From: Metabacillus sediminilitoris
Lineage (GTDB): Bacteria; Bacillota; Bacilli; Bacillales; Bacillaceae
NCBI RefSeq assembly: GCF_009720625.1
Contig: NZ_CP046266.1
Location: forward strand, 691,501-755,500
Reading direction: 5' to 3'
Length of the DNA stretch: 64,000 nucleotides
Numbering within the stretch: position 1 is the stretch's first letter; each line of letters begins with the position of its first letter. The notes beneath the pieces are model-generated. The model made no database searches. It saw only the letters and a list, made by a program, of their open reading frames with translations, and was not told where the DNA came from. Shown one piece after another: positions 20,457 to 32,458 of this stretch. Position numbers and translations under genes: made by a program.

Positions 20457-21509
20457 ATGAAAAAAGCTCTCTTATTGATTATGTTTTTACTTATTGCAGC
20501 AATTTCCGCAGCATGTTCAGCTGGTGGTGAGAAGACAGCAGCCGGCGGGGAAAAGGCAGCTGGTGGAAGTGGTGACGATACTCTTACTATTGCTTGGTAC
20601 CCAAATGAATCTGGAGCAGATTTGAAAGATGCTCGTGATGAAATTGGTAGAGTTATTGAGGAAGCAACAGGGAAAAAAGTAGAGCATAAAACAACGACAG
20701 ATTATATTATTGCGATTGAAGCATTAGCAACAGGTAACGCTGATTTAGCCTTTATGGGTGCGCAAGGTTATATTGAAGCAAATGCTAAGAATGATAAAGT
20801 TCAACCATTAGTTGTTCCAAGTGGTGCTTCAGGAACATTAGAGGACGCTGTTTATCATAGCTGGTTAGCAGTTAAAAAAGGAAATGAAGATGCTTATAAA
20901 AATGGCGATGAGTATTCTATTGATAACATTGTAGATAAAAAGTTTTCTTTCGTATCTAACAGTTCAACTTCTGGATTTAAAGTTCCTTCAGATGGAATCG
21001 TTTCTCACTTTAGTGAAAAAGATGAGTACAAGGATTTAACACCAGAAGACCTTCTTGAGGGTGGGAAATTCTTTAGTGAAGTTCTTTATGGGGGATCACA
21101 TCAAGGTTCAGCAGTTAACTTATTGTCAGATAAAGCCGATGTTGCAGCATTCTGTGATACTTGTGTAAGCAACTATGTAGAATTAGCAGATGGGGAAGCA
21201 AATACGCCGGGAGCAACTTATAAAGTTAAAGCTGATGCTGCTGAACCATTTAATACAGTTCCAGGTGCAGAATTTAACATTATCTCAGTAACACCAGTAT
21301 TAAATGCTCCTTTTGCAGTAAATACTGAAACAGTTAGTGAAGAAGACAAACAAGCTCTAATCGATGCCTTTACATCTGATGAAATGGCAAATAATGATAA
21401 GGTATTTGTACCTGAAGATGCAACTGGATTATTCACGAAATCGGATAAAGAGCGCTTCTTAGAAGTAGAAGATGCTTGGTTTGATCCAATTAGAGAATTA
21501 TCTAAATAA
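20457..21509 (+). CDS. phnD: Phosphonate ABC transporter, substrate-binding lipoprotein
   Basis: A 350-residue lipoprotein with the lipobox ISAAC (Cys20), followed by a Gly/Ala-rich linker and a periplasmic-binding fold of the PhnD family (LTIAWYPNES, ADLAFMGAQGYIEA, VSNSSTSGFKVPS). It captures phosphonates or related phosphorus compounds outside the membrane and delivers them to PhnE. ATG follows TAAGGAGGAAAG. It begins a compact phnD-C-E-E transcript. The substrate may also be phosphite or phosphate ester, which this family can bind. Confidence 0.94.
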   Translation: MKKALLLIMFLLIAAISAACSAGGEKTAAGGEKAAGGSGDDTLTIAWYPNESGADLKDARDEIGRVIEEATGKKVEHKTTTDYIIAIEALATGNADLAFMGAQGYIEANAKNDKVQPLVVPSGASGTLEDAVYHSWLAVKKGNEDAYKNGDEYSIDNIVDKKFSFVSNSSTSGFKVPSDGIVSHFSEKDEYKDLTPEDLLEGGKFFSEVLYGGSHQGSAVNLLSDKADVAAFCDTCVSNYVELADGEANTPGATYKVKADAAEPFNTVPGAEFNIISVTPVLNAPFAVNTETVSEEDKQALIDAFTSDEMANNDKVFVPEDATGLFTKSDKERFLEVEDAWFDPIRELSK

Positions 21510-21531
21510 ACATTTATAAAGGGAGTTAACT

Positions 21532-22320
21532 ATGACAACGTTATTAGAGTTAAAAAATGTATCAAAACAATATGGTAAAGATACATTAGCGTTATCAGAT
21601 GTTAACTTCTCTGTTAATGAAGGAGAGTTTATTTCCATTATTGGTCCGTCTGGAGCAGGGAAGTCTACTCTCCTTCGCTGTATGAATCGTATGATTGATG
21701 CTAACAGAGGAGAAATATTATTTGATAATGTAAATGTTTTAGATTTGAAGAAAAGAGACCTTAGAAAGTTACGCACAAAAATAGGAATGATTTTTCAACA
21801 CTATAATCTTGTTAACAGGCTAAGTGTTATTGAAAATGTTCTGCACGGAAGACTTGGTTACAAAACGGTTATTGGCGGGGCCTTAGGATTTTATAGTGAA
21901 GAAGAAAAAAGACAAGCTATATCCTTATTAAAGATATTAGGATTAGAAGATCAAATGTACAAACGATGTGATCAGTTAAGCGGTGGACAAAAACAGCGTG
22001 TAGGGATTGCACGAGCGTTAATACAAGATCCTAAATTGTTATTGTGTGATGAACCGATTGCTTCTTTGGATCCTAATGCATCTAAGGTTATTATGGATCA
22101 CTTAAAAAATATTTCGACTACCATGGGGATTACTGTTCTCGTTAATTTGCATCAAGTTGATGTTGCTCTTTCTTATTCAGACAGAGTTATAGGGGTTAGC
22201 AAAGGAAAAGTTGTCTACAATGGATCCCCAAGTGACATCACAAATGAAGAAATACATGGCATTTACGGTTCTGAAGCAGGCGAACTTATCATGGATTTTG
22301 GAGGGAAACACGTTGGGTAA
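21532..22320 (+). CDS. phnC: Phosphonate ABC transporter ATPase
   Basis: A 262-residue ABC ATPase with Walker A GPSGAGKST, signature LSGGQKQRVGIARAL, Walker B LLCDEPIASLD and a switch His in NLHQVD. It powers uptake through the two PhnE permeases. ATG follows AAAGGGAG 22 bp after phnD, and its 3' end overlaps the TTG start of phnE by 8 bp. Confidence 0.95.
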   Translation: MTTLLELKNVSKQYGKDTLALSDVNFSVNEGEFISIIGPSGAGKSTLLRCMNRMIDANRGEILFDNVNVLDLKKRDLRKLRTKIGMIFQHYNLVNRLSVIENVLHGRLGYKTVIGGALGFYSEEEKRQAISLLKILGLEDQMYKRCDQLSGGQKQRVGIARALIQDPKLLLCDEPIASLDPNASKVIMDHLKNISTTMGITVLVNLHQVDVALSYSDRVIGVSKGKVVYNGSPSDITNEEIHGIYGSEAGELIMDFGGKHVG

Positions 22321-23095
22321 TTTTTTCGTTAAGAAAAGAGTACAGTCACTTCTTGTTATTTCCTTATTACTCCTTGTTTCATACGGTTCAATTCTGATTA
22401 CCGAATTTGATGTTATAGCTGGTTTGAATTCGATTCCGAATGCAATTACATGGGGAATTTCTAATTTTTACCCAACGATGGAATCACTTGAGAAACTGCC
22501 AAGCATTTTAGAAAAACTTCAAGAAACGGTATTAATATCAATTGCTGCTGCTTCAGTAGCTGCTATTTTTGCCATTGTGTTTGCCATTATTGGATCAAAG
22601 ACAACAAGAATGAATGGGGTTTTAAGTACATTTAGCAGAGGAATAGCTACTTTATTTCGAAATATTGATGTGGCAGCATGGTCAATGATTTTGTTATTTT
22701 CATTTGGACAAAGCTCATTAACTGGTTATTTCGCTTTATTCTTTGTTTCTTTTGGCTTTTTAACAAGAGCGTTTATGGAGACAATTGATGAAGTTGGAGT
22801 TGGATCTGTTGAGGCGCTTACGTCAACAGGTGCAAGCTATACGTCAACTATTATACATTCTGTCATCCCTTCCTGCATTCCCCAAATTATTAGCTGGGTA
22901 TTATTTATGATTGAAACAAATATACGCAGTGCTACATTAGTAGGAATCCTCACGGGAACAGGCATCGGTTTTTCTTTCGACTTGTTTTATAAAAGCTTAA
23001 ATTATAATGCAGCAAGTTTAGTTGTTTTGACAATTGTCGTAACCATCTTAACAATTGAATTCATTTCAAATTATGTAAGAAGGGTGATTTTATAA
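22313..23095 (+). CDS. phnE: Phosphonate ABC transporter permease 1
   Basis: A 260-residue inner-membrane permease of the PhnE type with about six helices and the cytoplasmic EAA loop GVGSVEALTSTGASYTSTI. A TTG start inside the end of phnC is chosen: TTGGAGGGAAAC precedes it and the preceding in-frame ATG would overlap phnC by over 100 bp. It pairs with the second permease to form a heterodimer. Confidence 0.9.
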   Translation: MGNFFVKKRVQSLLVISLLLLVSYGSILITEFDVIAGLNSIPNAITWGISNFYPTMESLEKLPSILEKLQETVLISIAAASVAAIFAIVFAIIGSKTTRMNGVLSTFSRGIATLFRNIDVAAWSMILLFSFGQSSLTGYFALFFVSFGFLTRAFMETIDEVGVGSVEALTSTGASYTSTIIHSVIPSCIPQIISWVLFMIETNIRSATLVGILTGTGIGFSFDLFYKSLNYNAASLVVLTIVVTILTIEFISNYVRRVIL

Positions 23096-23961
23096 TGAGA
23101 GTTGGTGAGTATAGTAAAGTTGATCATACTGAGAGCTTCCAGCTAAATTCGTTAAATAAACGGATAAAAATTAAACGAATCAATAAAGCTACTATCACTA
23201 TTCGATTAACGATGATCATGCTGATTTTATTGACGATCTATGGTTTTCTAACCTTTGATTATAAGAATATCAATCTATTTGATGGTATTCTCATGACACT
23301 TACTAATCTTAAAGTGATGTTCTTAGAGGCTCATTTTGTCCATTTTACATTTCCAGAAGCCATATACCAATCTCTAGTTACAATGGGACTGGCGTTATTA
23401 ACAACATTGATAGGAGCGTTCATAGCTCTGATTTTAGCATTATTTGCTGCACAAAACTTGTCAACAGCTAGAGTATCGAATAGTATTAAAGGCTTTGTTG
23501 CATTTATTAGAGCAGTTCCAACTGTTTTATGGGTACTGATCTTTGCTGTCGCGGCAGGATTAGGCAGTGTCGCAGCAGTTATCGGGATGACCTTCCATTC
23601 AATTGGATACTTAATAAAAGCTTACTCTGAATCATTTGAAGAGTTAGATGAAGGTGTGATCGAAGCGTTAAGAGGAAGCGGTGCAAGCTGGTGGCAAATT
23701 GTTTTTCAGGCTGTTATTCCGTCATCCTTAACATACCTGATCTCATGGACATTTTTACGATTTGAAATCAACTTTGGTGTGGCAATTGCAATGGGTGCTG
23801 CTGCAGGGGCTGGCGGTATTGGTTTCGATATGTTTATGGCAAGCAGCTTTTATCTTGATTTACGAGAAGTAGGAACAATTACGTACTTCATTTTATTCTT
23901 CGCTGTTCTATTAGAAATTATCGCTACAAGAATTAAATCCAAATTACAAATCAAACTATAA
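23095..23961 (+). CDS. phnE: Phosphonate ABC transporter permease 2
   Basis: A 288-residue PhnE paralogue with a longer cytoplasmic N-terminus (residues 1-35), about six helices and an EAA loop (DEGVIEALRGSGASWWQIV). Its ATG shares one base with the stop codon of permease 1. Two divergent phnE genes are common in Bacillaceae phosphonate systems. A hairpin terminator follows, so the transporter transcript ends before the C-P lyase genes. Confidence 0.92.
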   Translation: MRVGEYSKVDHTESFQLNSLNKRIKIKRINKATITIRLTMIMLILLTIYGFLTFDYKNINLFDGILMTLTNLKVMFLEAHFVHFTFPEAIYQSLVTMGLALLTTLIGAFIALILALFAAQNLSTARVSNSIKGFVAFIRAVPTVLWVLIFAVAAGLGSVAAVIGMTFHSIGYLIKAYSESFEELDEGVIEALRGSGASWWQIVFQAVIPSSLTYLISWTFLRFEINFGVAIAMGAAAGAGGIGFDMFMASSFYLDLREVGTITYFILFFAVLLEIIATRIKSKLQIKL

Positions 23962-24626: not shown

Positions 24627-25355
24627 TTACACTGTCAATTCCAATTCCCTTGCGAGTCTCTTCTTATAAACAATCTTGGAAATAGAAACGCTCAATTCGT
24701 AAAGAAGAAGTAAAGGAACAATAACTAGAATATCTGAGATAAAATCAGGAGGAGTAATAAGGATTGACACCACAACGAGTACAAAATAGGAAGCTTTCCT
24801 CGCCTTTGCCAACCTCACTGGATTAAGTATTCCTAGTCTCGTTAAAAACATCACTACCAACGGCATCTCAAATAGAAAGCCGAAAGGTAAGCTAATGTGA
24901 ATCATGAACTTAAAATATTTATCTGCTGTAAACATCGTTTCAAACTGCCCTGCAGAAATATTCATTAGAAATCCTAATACAATTGGAAACAATACCAAGT
25001 ATCCAAAGCAGATTCCAACAATAAACAATATGAATAATCCTGGGATGAAGAATAAAGTTACTTTACTCTCGTCTTTTGTCAGAGCAGGAGCTATAAATTT
25101 CCATAACTGAAATGCAGCTACAGGAATTGTCAATGCTATTGCAAAAACACCAGAGATCATCATATACACCCATAAAATATCACTTGGTCCTAGTACAGCT
25201 AATTTCTCATTAAGATCTCTAATTAACCAATTATAAATATCTTGGACAAAAACAAATGCACAAACAAAAAAGATAATGAATGCTAACAAAACTATGATAA
25301 TTCGTTTACGAAGTTCTTCTAAATGTCCAATGAGATTAAGTTCTTTGTTTTCCAT
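24627..25355 (-). CDS. tatC: Twin-arginine translocase subunit TatC
   Basis: A 242-residue, six-helix protein beginning with the TatC cytoplasmic signature HLEELRKRI and containing the family segments LWKFIAPALTKDE, FGFLFEMPLVVMFL and SILITPPDFISD. TatC recognises the twin-arginine signal of folded substrates. It is the last gene of a four-gene transcript whose first product carries a Tat signal, so this is a dedicated translocase. ATG follows AACAGGAGGCG. Confidence 0.95.
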   Translation of the reverse strand: MENKELNLIGHLEELRKRIIIVLLAFIIFFVCAFVFVQDIYNWLIRDLNEKLAVLGPSDILWVYMMISGVFAIALTIPVAAFQLWKFIAPALTKDESKVTLFFIPGLFILFIVGICFGYLVLFPIVLGFLMNISAGQFETMFTADKYFKFMIHISLPFGFLFEMPLVVMFLTRLGILNPVRLAKARKASYFVLVVVSILITPPDFISDILVIVPLLLLYELSVSISKIVYKKRLARELELTV

Positions 25356-25414
25356 GATGGACGCCTCCTGTTAAAAAAAGAAGTAGACGAGTTTCCCCGC
25401 CTACATCATCATAA

Positions 25415-25645
25415 TCAAACTACTGATTTATCCTGTTTCGTTTCTATAGCGGTTAATCCAGTGTTTTTCTTTTCATCTCTTTCCTCATTTTCATCATCTG
25501 ATACTAAACCTTTTGTCGCATTCTTAAATTCTGATAAAGTATTTCCGAAAGCTCGACCGATCGCAGGTAATTTAGAAGGTCCAAAGATTACAAGTGCTAT
25601 TATTAGAATTAAAATCAAGCCTGGTACACCGATATTTTGTAACAT
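25415..25645 (-). CDS. tatA: Twin-arginine translocase pore subunit TatA
   Basis: A 76-residue protein: a short N-terminal membrane helix ([15 protein letters not shown]), the hinge FGPSKLP, an amphipathic helix ([19 protein letters not shown]) and an acidic/charged tail. These are diagnostic of TatA in Gram-positive TatA-TatC systems, which lack TatB. The ATG at 25645 is preferred because ATAGGAGTG lies upstream; the in-frame TTG 18 bp earlier would include that site. Confidence 0.94.
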
Positions 25646-25674
25646 TAAATTCACTCCTATCAAATAATCTGTTA

Positions 25675-26217
25675 TTACTTGTTTGTATTTTTATAAGCTA
25701 CTTCTGCTTCAATCTCAATGAGAAAATCGGGACTAACTAAACTTTCCACACCTACAGTAGATCGAGCAGTTTTCACTGGGTTTTCTTTTGTATTAAAGAA
25801 TTGGGCATAAGCATCAAACCATCCTTGATAATCTGGTTTATTTCCTTTGTTTGGATCTGGAGCAACATATACTCGCAGATATGTTACATCATTAAGGGAA
25901 AGTCCTTTAGCTTCTAAATCTGTTTCAAATTTCTTTAAGATTCCGATTGCTTGAGTTTCTGTATCACCATATCTTTCGTATGTAGTTTTTCCATCTTTAT
26001 TTAGAAGAGGTGGGACAGTTCCGCTAAACGATAACCGATTAAAATTGTGTGGTACATTAACTGAACTAGAAATTGCAGAAGTTGGAGATCCAAAGAAGGT
26101 TACTTCCTTGGATTTCAATGCGTCTTTTTCACTACCTGCTGAGGCAAAAGAGAATCCTACAATTAAACTTGTCCCAATGACTGTAGTGGCAATGATTGAT
26201 TTAATTGTCTTTTTCAT
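25675..26217 (-). CDS. Exported RidA/YjgF-family imine deaminase
   Basis: A 180-residue protein with a Sec signal peptide (residues 1-27, ending FSFASA) and a RidA domain (about 45-176). The substrate Arg is in ARSTVGV and the catalytic-site glutamates are in LIEIEAEV. RidA proteins hydrolyse reactive 2-imino/enamino acids released by amino acid-oxidising or PLP enzymes, and are normally cytoplasmic. Here it is exported and lies 53 bp after a Tat-exported flavin amine oxidase, whose imine product it could clear outside the cell. Its signal lacks a twin arginine, so it should travel by Sec. ATG follows AAAGGAGCTG. Confidence 0.9.
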
Positions 26218-26270
26218 AAAGTCAGCTCCTTTAATCTTTGAAACATGGATAGTTAAAATAAATCAATTGT

Positions 26271-27896
26271 TTATCCTACTTTAGAAGGAACCTTACCTTC
26301 TTTTAGTACGTCTTCATGAATTCTGCTAACTACAATTCTTGCTGATTCAAATGCACCTGCCATCCATCCAGTTAAATAACTGAGATGTTCACCAGCAAGA
26401 TGAACTCGACCTTGTGGCTCATTTAAAATTGGATAGTAGCTTTTAAGATCAGATGCGGAGTATTCTGCCCATCCACCTTCATTGTATTTAATTTTATGCC
26501 ATGCTACTGAGAAGGAATTTTCAAATTCTTTTGAATATTGAGGGTGTATCTTTGCTCCTTGATTTAAAGCACGGGCCTGCCGCTGTGAAAGGGATAGATC
26601 TCCATAATCTACTGCATTTTGACCAAAATTATAATAGCCAATTAATACACCTTTTTGTGATAAATAGCCATATGAAGGGTACCAAATCTGTGAAATATCC
26701 ATATTCGTTGTAGTAATGCCACCAAGAATACGATCATCCTGCTCCCAGAATCTATTTTTAAATTGAAAACCAATTTTCCCAGTCTTTGCATAATTAATAC
26801 TTCTAATTGCATTTTTCATTGGTTCAGTAAAATCAGCTGAAATATTTTTTAATACAGGGAGTGGGATTGTACAAATACAATAATCACCTGTGATTTCCTT
26901 TGTTTTTCCATCAGCTTTTGTTTTGTAAACAATCCGAACACCATTTGCTGTTTGTCTAATTTCTTGTACTTCAGCTCCGAATGTTATTATTCCAGGTAAC
27001 TGCTTTTCAAGAGCCTTTGGAATTTGGTCCATCCCTCCAACTGGTTGGAACATCATAGGCTGTTGTTGAAAACTATAATCTCCACTAATATTATTCATCA
27101 TCCCTGATTGAAGAAGCTCGCTAAAGGAATAAGGTTGATCTATTGTACCAGGCTGATGACCTCCACCAGGTAATTCCTTATATCCACGGCGACTAGAACC
27201 TTTGTATGTATAATCTGTAGATAAATCACCTTCTCTTTTTAGATATGCTGTTAATTTTTCAATATCATCTTTTGTAAGAGGAGAATCTAACGATGTTTTA
27301 TCTGCAACTTTAGCTAATAATTCCGAAACATAGCCTCGAGTATCAGACTTTACAGTACCCTTACGTATTTTCTGATTGGATAGAGGACCTGCATTTTCCT
27401 GATAGTAGTACGAGAATTCATTTGAATTAGCAAATACTTCAAGTTCAACTCCCAGTTCTCTACAATAATCTAGTGTTACATGATGTTGTGGAATACGGGC
27501 AGGGCCTGCATTCATGTATTGTCCTTTATCAAATTTAGATGTTTGTTTCACACCATTAATTTCCGTTTCTGTAGTACCTTGTCTAACTGTCCAGTTTCGG
27601 CCACCAGTACGATCCCTTGCCTCAAGTATTTTACAGTTGTATCCAGCTTTACCCAATTCATAAGCTGCTGCCATTCCGGCAATGCCTGCTCCTAAAATGA
27701 TAATTTTTTTACCATTTTTATTTGCCATAGTTAAATCACTTCTTTTAGGAGCGTTGAATTCTTTTGCGCTTGCTAACGAGTGACCCAATAAACCTAAAGA
27801 TTCCATTGCGCCCCAAACTGCAACTGCTCCACCAACTTTACCAGCTTGGTTAAGAAAATCTCTTCTTGTCATGCCTTTACCTTGGTTATTTTCCAT
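26271..27896 (-). CDS. Tat-exported flavin-containing amine / L-amino acid oxidase
   Basis: A 541-residue flavoprotein. The N-terminus contains R11-R12-D-F-L followed by a hydrophobic stretch ending ASA, a twin-arginine signal. Residues about 64-92 form the FAD-binding fold (IIILGAGIAGMAAAYELGKAG) and RTGGRNW is the second flavin motif. The C-terminal FAD motif is HLAGEHLSYLTGWMAGAFESA. This is the amine oxidase/LAAO family, which turns an amino acid or amine into an imine plus H2O2. It heads an operon with exported RidA, TatA and TatC. ATG follows AAAAGGAGATAA. The substrate cannot be told from sequence. Confidence 0.93.
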   Translation of the reverse strand: MENNQGKGMTRRDFLNQAGKVGGAVAVWGAMESLGLLGHSLASAKEFNAPKRSDLTMANKNGKKIIILGAGIAGMAAAYELGKAGYNCKILEARDRTGGRNWTVRQGTTETEINGVKQTSKFDKGQYMNAGPARIPQHHVTLDYCRELGVELEVFANSNEFSYYYQENAGPLSNQKIRKGTVKSDTRGYVSELLAKVADKTSLDSPLTKDDIEKLTAYLKREGDLSTDYTYKGSSRRGYKELPGGGHQPGTIDQPYSFSELLQSGMMNNISGDYSFQQQPMMFQPVGGMDQIPKALEKQLPGIITFGAEVQEIRQTANGVRIVYKTKADGKTKEITGDYCICTIPLPVLKNISADFTEPMKNAIRSINYAKTGKIGFQFKNRFWEQDDRILGGITTTNMDISQIWYPSYGYLSQKGVLIGYYNFGQNAVDYGDLSLSQRQARALNQGAKIHPQYSKEFENSFSVAWHKIKYNEGGWAEYSASDLKSYYPILNEPQGRVHLAGEHLSYLTGWMAGAFESARIVVSRIHEDVLKEGKVPSKVG

Positions 27897-28611
27897 AATT
27901 TATCTCCTTTTCTTTTACTAGATTGATAGTTGATAGATTGATTATATTTTAGGGAAATTCCAAAGTCTGTATTTATGTAAGGAAATATGACGGAGTTTTT
28001 CGAATTTTTTGACAATATTTTTGAAAATGGTATAAAAAAGGACCTTTTTAACTACTAGTTTTCAATACTATTTCAATTTCTGCTGGAATTATAAGATTTA
28101 TGTTAGATTTTGTTACATAACAGATGTTTGGGGGAGTCTGAAGAAGTAATGTTTGAGGAAATAATGTAATTGACCATGATGTTCCGATTAGAATTAACAA
28201 GTTCTAAAATGAATGTTGCCCGATGAGGGAAACATCTCCTTTAAGTGAGACAGTCCAAATAGAAATTACTTTTTATTTTAATAATTTGAGTTTTAAAACT
28301 TTTTATTGAAAATAATCCTTACGAAGAAAATAGGGGATTTTTATTTAATTATTATTAGAGGAATTTATGAATGAGAAAAGGAATTTTAAGCTGTTATTGT
28401 TGATTGGTAAGGATAAATAAAGTAAAGATCATTTAGTTATGTATTACAAAGAAAGCTTTTCTTAAGAAAGAATGCATGGTTACCTTGTATTATACCTGAG
28501 AAGGTTTTTTATTTTGTTGAGACATTTGTAATGTGACAGAAGTTAAAGTTGATGAATGATCTATTCATCTAATTTGTAAAAGTAGATAATACAATATCTG
28601 AAACTTAGTTA
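27897..28611. other. Long AT-rich intergenic region upstream of the amine oxidase operon
   Basis: Stop codons are dense in all frames and I see no supported gene. The segment next to the oxidase contains a TATAAT match on the minus strand about 50 bp upstream of its ATG, a plausible -10 for the operon. Confidence 0.5.
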
Positions 28612-29387: not shown

Positions 29388-29825
29388 ATGAAAAAATCAA
29401 GGTTGACGAAAATCCTCGTAGAAGGAAGACATGAGTTTCTTACAAAATGGACGGAAGCTATTGAAAAAATAACAAATGTAAATATTGTCCGTGCACCTTC
29501 AACTGGATTAGTCATGCTTAAAACAAGAGATTCAGTTTCAAAACAACCGTTTTATATGGGAGAAGTCCTTGTAACGGAGTGTTCGGTTTCGATTGATCAT
29601 CATGCTGGATTCGGCATTATTATGGGTGAGAATCCAGAGCGTTCCTATCAAATCGCAGTCGTGGATGCTGCTTTAAATGCGCAACTACCAATCATAAGCA
29701 AATTGCTAACTGAATTGGAAATGGAAGAGAAATATATCCAGCAAAGAATATATGAAGAAGCAGCAAGGGCTGCAACAACGAAAGTCCAATTTGATACGAT
29801 GGAGGATTACAATGCAAAAAGCTAA
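29388..29825 (+). CDS. phnG: C-P lyase subunit PhnG
   Basis: A 145-residue PhnG protein with the family pattern RAPSTGLVMLKTRDSV...PFYMGEVLVTECSV and a conserved GFGIIMGENPERSYQIAVVDA. PhnG joins PhnH, PhnI and PhnJ in the core complex; PhnI with PhnG, H and L displaces adenine from ATP by methylphosphonate. ATG follows TAGGAGGTAATCG. It begins the second phn transcript, and its end overlaps phnH by 14 bp. Confidence 0.94.
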   Translation: MKKSRLTKILVEGRHEFLTKWTEAIEKITNVNIVRAPSTGLVMLKTRDSVSKQPFYMGEVLVTECSVSIDHHAGFGIIMGENPERSYQIAVVDAALNAQLPIISKLLTELEMEEKYIQQRIYEEAARAATTKVQFDTMEDYNAKS

Positions 29826-30438
29826 TCTTGAGACATTTGATATGGTCCATGGTACACAACAAATTTTCCGAAAATTATTAGATTGCATGTCAAGACCTGG
29901 GAAAATCCAATCTATCTCTGAAGAAATTGCTCCCATAAACGAATTGGAAGGATTTGCGAGTGTCCTTCAAGGTATTGCTTTTACATTAATCGATCGTGAA
30001 GTTAACTTTTATGTTCTTTCAAACCATGCTGAAACGATCACACGATCCTTAGAGTGGAAAACGTATAGTAAAAGAAGTTCCATACAAGATGCTGATTATA
30101 TCTTTATTACAAATCCTGAAGTAGTTGAAAACATAACTGAAATGATGCAGCAAGTAAAAAAAGGTACACTTTTGGATCCACATGATAGTGCAACAGTTGT
30201 TCTATGTGTAAAAGAAGTAACAAAAATACCTGCTGCCACAGGAAAACTAATGATGAGTGGACCAGGAATTGCCTCAGAGCAAACAGTCTACATTGACGGA
30301 TTACAAGCTAAATGGATTGAGGAACGTAATAAAGCTACAAAGGAGTTCCCATTAGGAATCGACATCATTTTAACAACAAGAGATGGGGACATGATGGCAA
30401 TACCTAGAACTACTTTACTAGAAAGTGAGGAATTGTAG
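29812..30438 (+). CDS. phnH: C-P lyase subunit PhnH
   Basis: A 208-residue PhnH protein (FRKLLDCMSRPGKIQSI near the N-terminus, GTLLDPHDSATVVL mid-protein). PhnH has a PLP-transferase-like fold without activity and is a structural partner of PhnGIJ. The ATG at 29812 is chosen because GATGGAGGATT precedes it; a further in-frame ATG 60 bp upstream lies inside phnG. The stop is directly followed by the phnI ATG. Confidence 0.93.
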   Translation: MQKANLETFDMVHGTQQIFRKLLDCMSRPGKIQSISEEIAPINELEGFASVLQGIAFTLIDREVNFYVLSNHAETITRSLEWKTYSKRSSIQDADYIFITNPEVVENITEMMQQVKKGTLLDPHDSATVVLCVKEVTKIPAATGKLMMSGPGIASEQTVYIDGLQAKWIEERNKATKEFPLGIDIILTTRDGDMMAIPRTTLLESEEL

Positions 30439-31560
30439 ATGGGTTATGTAGCTGTGACTGGTGGTCAAAAAGCAATTGAACATGCAAATGATCTCACCAA
30501 ATACTATCGCTTAAAAAATGCTGATGGAGTACTAAATATTAAAGAAATTGAAGCACAGTTTCGACTTTTAATTGATCGTGTTATGGGGGAAGGCGGTCTT
30601 TATGCCCCTGAATATGCTGCATTAGCTTTAAAACAAGCCGAAGGGGATCCGGCAGAAGCAGCTTTTCTATTAAGAGCATATCGTTCAACATTACCAAGAA
30701 ATCATTACTCTCTGACTGTTGAACCAAGTGAAATGAGAGTTTTACGAAAAATTTCCTCATCTTTTAAAGATATTCCTGGAGGTCAAATACTTGGTCCAAC
30801 ATATGACTATACTCATAGATTATTAAACTTTGATTTAAAAAACGAAGAAACGGACGTCATTAAGGAATTTTTAGCGGATTTTGAACTATCTTCTAAGGTT
30901 GACGGAGAGGATATCACGACATATGGGAAAGTAACAGATTTGCTGCAGCAAGAAGGATTAGTAGGCAACCACAGCTGCGAAGAAGTGGAGCCATTTGATG
31001 TAACGAGAGACAAGCTTATTTTTCCTGCCTCACGCTCTGCGAGACTGCAAATTCTTTCAAGGGGCGAAACAGGTGCCATGACATCATTTGCTTATAGCAG
31101 TATGAGAGGATATGGAGTTGTTCACCCAACAATTGGAGAATTAAGAGTTGGTTATACCGATGTTTACATACCTTATCCATATGGTGAAGAAGATGATTCG
31201 ATTTACATTGGCGAAATCATGGTAACGGAAGTAGAAACGATTAATTCGTTTGCTCAAAATGAACAAGGGAATGTCGAATTTTTACTTGGCTATGGCTTAA
31301 CATTCGGGCAAAACGAGGTAAAGGCGATTGCCATGGCGATTCTTGAAAGAAGTTTGGAGACAGAAGGAACTTCACCAACACAAGACGAGGAATTTGTGTT
31401 GTTGCATATTGATAGCGTTGAAGCTCACGGGTTTGTTTCACACTTAAAACTGCCGCACTATATTACATTCCAATCTAAGCTGGACCGGATTAGAGAAGCA
31501 AAAAATACAAAACAAAATAACAAAACAATAGAACAGGCTGTAACTTTTAATCCATTTTAA
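30439..31560 (+). CDS. phnI: C-P lyase nucleosidase subunit PhnI
   Basis: A 373-residue PhnI (MGYVAVTGGQKAIEHAN start; ASRSARLQILSRGETGAMTSFAYSSMRGYG). PhnI cleaves the N-glycosidic bond of a nucleotide and transfers ribose triphosphate to the phosphonate to give ribose 1-methylphosphonate 5-triphosphate. The ATG follows directly after the phnH stop, with GTGAGGAATTGTAG as the ribosome site. Confidence 0.95.
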   Translation: MGYVAVTGGQKAIEHANDLTKYYRLKNADGVLNIKEIEAQFRLLIDRVMGEGGLYAPEYAALALKQAEGDPAEAAFLLRAYRSTLPRNHYSLTVEPSEMRVLRKISSSFKDIPGGQILGPTYDYTHRLLNFDLKNEETDVIKEFLADFELSSKVDGEDITTYGKVTDLLQQEGLVGNHSCEEVEPFDVTRDKLIFPASRSARLQILSRGETGAMTSFAYSSMRGYGVVHPTIGELRVGYTDVYIPYPYGEEDDSIYIGEIMVTEVETINSFAQNEQGNVEFLLGYGLTFGQNEVKAIAMAILERSLETEGTSPTQDEEFVLLHIDSVEAHGFVSHLKLPHYITFQSKLDRIREAKNTKQNNKTIEQAVTFNPF

Positions 31561-31597
31561 TAGTGTTCATTAATGAATCGAGAGGGAGGAAAGTGAA

Positions 31598-32458
31598 ATG
31601 AAAATGGAAGTTGCACATACGTACAATTATGCCTTTTTAGATGAAGGTTCAAAAAGAGAAATAAGACGATCTGTTTTGAAGGCTGTTGCAATCCCTGGTT
31701 ATCAAGTTCCGTTTGCATCCAGAGAAATGCCGATTGGAAGAGGATGGGGGACAGGAGGGTTACAAATCACTCTTTCTTTAATAGGTGAAAAAGATACGTT
31801 AAAAGTAATTGACCAAGGTCATGATGACAGTGTCAATGCTGTTAGCATTAAGCGTTTAGTCGAGACATGTTCAAATGTAAGGGCAACTGAAAATTCAGAG
31901 GAAGCCACTATCATTCAAACAAGGCATAGGATTCCCGAAATTCCTTTAAGACAGGATCAAATTTTAGTATTACAAGTGCCGCTCCCTGAGCCTTTAAGAA
32001 GAGTGGAAGCAAAAGAAAAAGATACGAAAAGACTTCATGCCGAAATGGATTACAGCAGTATTTGGCTTCGATTATACGAGGACATCGTGAAATGGGGGAA
32101 AATCACGATTGGAGCCGACTATCCAAGCATGGTCAACGGAAGGTATATTTTTAACCCAAGCCCAATTCCACGCTATGACTTATTAAAATTACACCAAGCA
32201 AATGGATTGTTTTTATTTGGTGCAGGCAGAGAAAAGAAGATTTATGCCATCCCTCCGTACACAGATGTGAAGCCGTTGGAATTTGATGATTATCCATTCG
32301 AGGTAGAAAATTTTGATGGATTAACATGTCAATCTTGTGGAAGCAAAGATGTATTTCTAGATGAAATTTATGATGCTGAGACAGGAAAAAAACGATATCA
32401 GTGCTCTGATACTGGATACTGTCAAACGAAACAAAATGAAAGAGGGTCTTTCGTATGA
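31598..32458 (+). CDS. phnJ: C-P lyase radical SAM catalytic subunit PhnJ
   Basis: A 286-residue PhnJ. The iron-sulfur cysteines C244-x2-C247-x21-C269-x5-C275 are present in the spacing known for the family, and GWGTGGLQITLSLIG supports the assignment. PhnJ uses S-adenosylmethionine and a [4Fe-4S] cluster to break the C-P bond, releasing methane (or another alkane) and 5-phosphoribosyl 1,2-cyclic phosphate. The stop overlaps the phnK start by 4 bp. ATG follows GAGGGAGGAAAG. Confidence 0.96.
   Translation: MKMEVAHTYNYAFLDEGSKREIRRSVLKAVAIPGYQVPFASREMPIGRGWGTGGLQITLSLIGEKDTLKVIDQGHDDSVNAVSIKRLVETCSNVRATENSEEATIIQTRHRIPEIPLRQDQILVLQVPLPEPLRRVEAKEKDTKRLHAEMDYSSIWLRLYEDIVKWGKITIGADYPSMVNGRYIFNPSPIPRYDLLKLHQANGLFLFGAGREKKIYAIPPYTDVKPLEFDDYPFEVENFDGLTCQSCGSKDVFLDEIYDAETGKKRYQCSDTGYCQTKQNERGSFV

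Follow-up and report, generated by a model that had tools for sequence, protein, structure and literature searches.

A Tat-linked cassette of Metabacillus sediminilitoris with a predicted secreted L-amino acid oxidase, a predicted exported Rid protein and conserved nitrogen-control boxes

The stretch of Metabacillus sediminilitoris DNA analysed here (the window; 64,000 nucleotides of contig NZ_CP046266.1, positions 691,501 to 755,500) carries a four-gene cassette at 24627-27896, all on the minus strand, that encodes an L-amino acid oxidase (LAAO), a Rid protein, TatA and TatC. We consider it likely, with a probability of roughly three in four, that the cassette serves the cell under nitrogen starvation by deaminating extracellular amino acids and is not primarily a detoxification system. 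Nitrogen scavenging is proposed as the purpose because TnrA/GlnR boxes are conserved upstream of the oxidase gene and, in many relatives, a TnrA-like gene lies next to it. The enzyme activity, substrate range, induction and cooperation of the products are predictions drawn from the genes, their signals, their conserved linkage and the conserved boxes. A first-pass annotation, made from the letters of this DNA and its open reading frames (ORFs), had placed the four genes in the same order and position, which the ORFs and family matches confirm, and had read them as a joint extracellular unit for detoxification (or for producing H2O2 and ammonia). The conserved pair and two leaders that look sound support the joint unit, but its purpose is better described as ammonium scavenging, in which imine removal is a step and hydrogen peroxide (H2O2) a by-product. 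The main functional clue missed in that annotation is the TnrA/GlnR nitrogen-control box. The features are, in the direction of transcription:

28101..28117, minus strand: exact TnrA/GlnR box (TGTNAN7TNACA), -221 to -205 from the LAAO start codon
27976..27992, minus strand: second TnrA/GlnR-like box with one mismatch, -96 to -80 from the LAAO start
27941..27946, minus strand: TATAAT -10 hexamer, 29 nt past the proximal box, read from the sequence
26271..27896, minus strand: predicted secreted LAAO, 541 amino acids, a flavin adenine dinucleotide (FAD) flavoprotein with a TRRDFL signal for twin-arginine translocation (Tat)
25675..26217, minus strand: predicted exported Rid3-like imine deaminase, 180 amino acids, with a Sec-type leader
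25415..25645, minus strand: TatA, 76 amino acids from the ATG at 25645 (PF02416, 78 bits; NF011430, 101.5 bits, cut-off 62)
25383..25404, minus strand: terminator-like hairpin in the tatA-tatC gap, recurring in homologous gaps
24627..25355, minus strand: TatC, 242 amino acids (TIGR00945, 188.9 bits, cut-off 132.7)

Chance neighbourhood of the oxidase and Rid genes is ruled out by their co-occurrence and adjacency in the window's family, at loci of named genomes and in a sample of 394 genomes. The last represents one other family of the class, probably Paenibacillaceae, and, with thresholds of E 1e-60 and 1e-20, contained 62 genomes with both LAAO and Rid, one with LAAO only, none with Rid only and 331 with neither. 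The members of all 62 pairs are adjacent and on the same strand, with 23-278 nt between the matches; in one genome (G1059) the oxidase match is broken into two parts. In the window's family, Rid and an LAAO of 77-100% identity occur in the same seven of 80 genomes, and in another 17 genomes the LAAO-like matches do not exceed 36% identity and no such Rid is present. The first-pass annotation had offered co-occurrence in other genomes as a check on a joint system, and both samples support it. A scan of named genomes with the Rid alignment yielded 146 relatives, the best 80 loci of which were kept. In 72 of them, Rid is immediately preceded by a long LAAO match, and one of these (L050) has an interrupted oxidase frame; among the other eight, L045 is cut by a contig end, and seven are of a Peribacillus type in which the oxidase has decayed or gone. 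The Rid of L080 appears truncated. The 72 loci were labelled Bacillaceae-type (n = 20) or Paenibacillaceae-type (n = 52) from genus names and layout. The suggested search for the same gene order elsewhere was successful, since this order, or a Paenibacillus rearrangement of it, is conserved across the named-genome loci.

The nitrogen-control boxes were searched within 450 bp upstream of LAAO with the consensus TGTNAN7TNACA, as given in the accessible text of PMC3412718 and PMC9948412. An exact box is present in 62 of the 72 loci, compared with about one in single-base shuffles and with 8 of 351 other upstream regions of the same loci used as a control. The Bacillaceae-type loci have an exact box in 13 of 20 cases (shuffle mean 0.28, maximum 2 in 100) and all 20 have a box if one mismatch is allowed (shuffle mean 5.98, maximum 12). 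The exact boxes are mostly confined to -79 to -110 from the LAAO start, and the bases left unspecified by the consensus vary, with 49 distinct boxes among 59. For the window alone, the number of boxes is not significant (two found versus 1.65 expected), and therefore only the cross-locus test counts. At an offset of 29 from the box, eight of the 20 Bacillaceae-type regions, including the window, match TATAAT in at least five of six positions, compared with 3/20 at the next-best offsets. The spacing of TATAAT in the window puts the proximal box near -50 from the expected transcription start, the activating position for TnrA.

The window's genome encodes a TnrA (166.6 bits against a cut-off of 140), and a second, weaker match (85 bits) is probably GlnR. 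In 51 of the 52 Paenibacillaceae-type loci, L067 being the exception, a small divergent gene of MerR type and TnrA-like sequence stands beside LAAO; L063, L083, L090 and L098 belong to the loci with this gene, together with 47 others. The best solved relative of the product at L083 is TnrA with 92.6 bits (GlnR, 59.4 bits), and four such genes tested against the TnrA model gave 108-127 bits, below the cut-off of 140. An adjacent tnrA-like gene was found in none of the 20 Bacillaceae-type loci. A role of the boxes for this divergent gene only was rejected, because the Bacillaceae-type loci have boxes without such a neighbour. P. polymyxa WLY78 is described in the accessible part of PMC9948412 as lacking tnrA, which makes the cassette-linked TnrA-like gene in other Paenibacillaceae notable. 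Neither amine oxidases nor amino acid oxidases turned up in a term search through the main text of papers on the TnrA and GlnR regulons.

The first gene of the cassette had been described as a flavin amine oxidase. The domain behind this description was found (PF01593, 184 bits in a profile search), but the closest solved relative is the LAAO of Rhodococcus opacus (2jae, 399 bits), followed by other LAAO-type chains with at most 149 bits. A generic amine oxidase was ruled out because putrescine and monoamine oxidases score at most 52 bits, against 399 bits for the R. opacus enzyme. The N-terminus reads MENNQGKGMTRRDFLNQ... and contains the twin-arginine motif TRRDFL, in agreement with the RR-type Tat signal annotated before; the RR motif is found in 72 of 72 long LAAO matches, for which start codons were picked by a script to favour it. 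Arg134 aligns with the arginine of RIPQ in 2jae, presumably the carboxylate-binding site, and is invariant in 73 of 73 alignment rows. The protein would be a secreted oxidase of the R. opacus type that oxidizes L-amino acids with release of H2O2.

Rid proteins are usually regarded as cytoplasmic housekeepers. The cassette Rid (PF01042, 37.7 bits, cut-off 27.3) has a leader with a K-rich start, a hydrophobic core and ..FSFASA|GS, with a mean Kyte-Doolittle value of 2.07 over 15 residues. This leader is special to it because the two other Rids of the genome have none (0.89 and 1.0). The hydrophobic N-terminus exceeds a cut-off of 1.6 in 79 of the 80 loci, the remaining one having 1.56, and a leader was judged by eye to be present in all 80; thus, the Sec leader of the first-pass annotation looks sound. 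Arg152 and Glu170, the Arg/Glu pair of the catalytic criterion given for RidA and Rid1-3 in the accessible part of PMC4433059, are kept in 81 of 81 alignment rows; a regular expression recovered the motif in 70 of 80 Rids, and the alignment recovered the Arg in 81 of 81. The best solved relatives are PFL1385 and PSPTO3006, which are classed as Rid3 and cut the formation of semicarbazone from imines of snake L-amino acid oxidase, as described in the available text of PMC5619798. By analogy with these assayed relatives, the cassette Rid could be a Rid3-like imine deaminase that hydrolyses imines.

A sequence of events can be proposed for the nitrogen-scavenging cassette. Under nitrogen shortage, TnrA (or GlnR) would act at the upstream boxes and the operon would be turned on. 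Judging from its signal, the folded, FAD-loaded LAAO would be moved across the membrane by Tat, and outside the cell it would turn L-amino acids into imino acids, with H2O2 as a by-product. The Sec-exported Rid would then accelerate the conversion of imino acids to keto acids and ammonium near the cell, as its tested relatives suggest, and the released ammonium would be imported. With TatA and TatC co-encoded, translocation capacity would climb along with the cargo, and the hairpin past tatA would probably hold TatA in excess over TatC.

Both Tat genes score above curated cut-offs (NF011430 and TIGR00945), with profile matches of 78 bits for TatA_B_E and 202 bits for TatC. The start of TatA is very probably the ATG at 25645, which is preceded by AGGAG and gives 76 amino acids, and not the TTG at 25663 in the ORF list (frame 25663-25415). 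The called ORFs are spaced by 53, 11 and 59 nt for LAAO-Rid, Rid-TatA and TatA-TatC, respectively. A single transcript had been proposed for the four genes, and this has to be qualified, since the terminator-like hairpin (25404-25383) lies between tatA and tatC. Such hairpins are found in 13 of 25 tatA-tatC gaps including the window (single-base shuffles, mean 0.11, maximum 2 in 100), and their stem sequences vary among the gaps of the window and 24 loci. The hairpin suggests that more TatA than TatC is made. It possibly fixes the TatA:TatC ratio.

The first-pass annotation had also assigned the Tat pair to the oxidase. In position this holds for most loci, since, of the 72, 70 have TatA adjoining the LAAO-Rid pair and 67 have TatC there, in two layouts; both TatA-less loci and two of the five TatC-less loci are short contigs. 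TatC is downstream in 19 of the 20 Bacillaceae-type loci, and the remaining one (L031) ends too soon. Among the 52 Paenibacillaceae-type loci, TatC is divergent and upstream in 44, downstream in four and not found in four (including L068, a short contig), and TatA comes after Rid in 51. The Tat genes are kept in both layouts, and therefore the association outlasts a rearrangement. The Tat genes are thus linked to the oxidase in position and probably in dosage. It is unlikely, on the other hand, that the local TatAC is an exclusive translocase that has co-evolved with the oxidase. Such a partnership would be comparable to PhoD-TatAdCd, as presented in the accessible part of PMC3827258, and would account for the adjacency of the genes; the distances of LAAO and TatC also show a correlation of 0.92 when all 65 cassettes are taken together (0.86 for LAAO-Rid), a value perhaps owed largely to the separation of the two layouts. 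When 18 Bacillaceae-type cassettes are taken by themselves, the correlation is 0.57 for LAAO-TatC versus 0.77 for LAAO-Rid. The starred branches of a quick tree are by themselves compatible with one origin of the cassette TatCs and do not require more, but approximately unbiased (AU) tests rejected a single origin. Constraining the 19 Bacillaceae-type cassette TatCs to one clade gave p 0.0005, in a set reduced from 102 to 61 rows by dropping duplicates and keeping one "up" TatC in eight, and without a long branch (18 TatCs) it gave p 0.0007, in a set of 55 rows from which duplicates, L056 and all "up" TatCs were dropped; the cassette TatC group was defined by position, and the test came after a first look at a tree. 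Moreover, the TatCs of L035 and L040 fall in a group (support 88) with the PhoX-linked TatC of the window's genome, which also has a housekeeping-type TatAC pair beside rex/groES, gene names that were recognised by eye.

The cassette TatCs appear, from these comparisons, to come from several lineages, and the simplest reading would be that a stable LAAO-Rid pair has repeatedly captured or exchanged TatAC. The genome itself (L111-L118 and the window) holds seven intact TatC genes and one broken, together with nine TatA matches, one of them alone. Six of the seven intact TatC genes each stand behind a different putative Tat cargo. Leaving aside the rex/groES-linked pair, every TatAC comes after a putative cargo: LAAO, an amidohydrolase, PhoX (twice), a metallophosphoesterase (twice, in one case with the broken TatC) and a beta-helix protein whose RR motif is weak. 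Between two and five TatC matches were counted in each of 31 other genomes. The chances seem to us evenly divided that Tat export in Bacillota is modular, with nutrient-scavenging cargos repeatedly acquiring their own TatAC and their own nutrient switch, and that the present cassette is the nitrogen version, parallel to the phosphate-linked PhoD-TatAdCd. If this is true, bacterial Rids would have a real extracellular catalytic role, and the Paenibacillaceae cassette would bring its own TnrA-like regulator.

Several observations weigh against nitrogen scavenging as the function of the cassette. The start-proximal box of the window has one mismatch and only the distal box is exact, an exact box is missing in the family members L122 and L124, and the PhoD gene of the window's genome also has one within 450 bp (one of seven other Tat-cargo genes). 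No -10 peak was found in the 52 Paenibacillaceae-type regions (0 at offset 29 and 1 at offset 30), and kinship among the loci means that the counts exaggerate the independent evidence. One genome (G1156) has LAAO, TatA and a divergent TatC, with no Rid match. The cassette is rare and sporadic in occurrence: the class-wide and phylum-wide samples gave one of 398 genomes each, which is the window's genome, and they therefore hold no information on co-occurrence. In addition, an orphan exported Rid is intact in seven of seven Peribacillus-type loci with a decayed or lost LAAO (L032, L033, L034, L036, L037, L038, and L052), and ratios of nonsynonymous to synonymous substitution (dN/dS) of 0.17-0.28 in 21 pairs indicate purifying selection. 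C-terminal oxidase remnants, some of them weak, lie upstream in six of the seven, and clear TatC remnants were seen in two. Rid can therefore persist without the oxidase, and the exported protein may have another role. The Rids of LAAO-bearing cassettes have dN/dS values of 0.04-0.08, a weak contrast because 13 of the 21 cassette pairs yielded no value and the figures come from eight pairs only.

A reading close to that of the first-pass annotation is that the cassette is an extracellular weapon or signal, in which H2O2 from the oxidase acts against competitors and Rid shields the producer surface from reactive imines. H2O2 is an expected by-product of this flavoenzyme class, and PMC4699246, in its accessible part, deals with antimicrobial amino acid oxidases from marine bacteria; however, neither the nitrogen-control boxes nor the neighbouring TnrA-like gene would be expected of a weapon, and we consider this function improbable. 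It is highly improbable that the main benefit is auxin (indole-3-acetic acid, IAA) formed from tryptophan outside the cell, as in Gluconacetobacter and Chlamydomonas: transposon hits in lao of the lao-cccA-ridA cluster abolished IAA in G. diazotrophicus (available text of PMC5053998), but no cytochrome c or decarboxylase is among the four genes here, and nitrogen control points to ammonium as the product sought.

The cassette sits inside a phosphonate locus whose genes are all on the opposite strand, with genes for a phosphonate-binding protein and an ATP-binding cassette (ABC) transporter on one side and phnGHIJ on the other (window 20457-23961 and 29388-32458). The whole cassette is also found at 172517-175785 of a 362 kb plasmid of Metabacillus dongyingensis (NZ_OK052578.1), with 83% DNA identity over 96% of the query, and this plasmid copy suggests horizontal spread.

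If the proposed function is correct, Rid would have a part in a nutrient pathway, releasing ammonium outside a bacterial cell, and nitrogen scavenging would be suggested as a physiological role of a class of bacterial oxidases. Gene order and boxes together predict that the cassette is nitrogen-induced and tnrA-dependent and that it allows growth on amino acids; it also allows a test of translocases as cargo-linked modules. For the Rhodococcus enzymes, no physiological function had been proposed to the knowledge of the authors of PMC4699246, in its accessible part. A secreted LAAO with a Rid partner is already known from Chlamydomonas. No report of coupling of an LAAO-Rid pair to Tat genes or to TnrA sites was found in the openly licensed literature searched, in the text available from it; most subscription papers lie outside that literature.

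The comparisons that follow are drawn from the accessible parts of the cited papers. In Chlamydomonas, the extracellular LAO1 is induced by nitrogen limitation and has the Rid partner LAO2/RIDA (PMC10805672), and a periplasmic LAAO-RidA complex of this alga is cited in PMC5053998. The cassette resembles this system in its clustered LAAO and Rid partner, both with export signals here as judged by sequence, and differs in that Chlamydomonas is a eukaryote whose cluster is described without Tat genes and that nitrogen control here takes the form of predicted TnrA/GlnR-type sites. Niehaus et al. described genes for RidA and Rid3 that cluster with those for amine oxidases (PMC4433059). The closest solved relatives of the cassette Rid, the Rid3 proteins PFL_1385 and PSPTO_3006, are imine deaminases acting on products of an L-amino acid oxidase, but they are Pseudomonas proteins and are not described within a Tat operon (PMC5619798). 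The lao-cccA-ridA cluster of Gluconacetobacter diazotrophicus similarly has, beside ridA, an LAAO with a Tat signal and 34% identity to the R. opacus enzyme; it differs in its cytochrome c, in that no tat genes are named and export of Rid is not described, and in having been studied for auxin (PMC5053998). Finally, phoD-tatAdCd of Bacillus subtilis resembles the cassette in joining a Tat cargo gene to a tatAC pair of its own and in its tie to a nutrient, in that case phosphate (PMC3827258), whereas the cargo here, in place of PhoD, is a predicted nitrogen-releasing oxidase accompanied by a Sec-exported partner.

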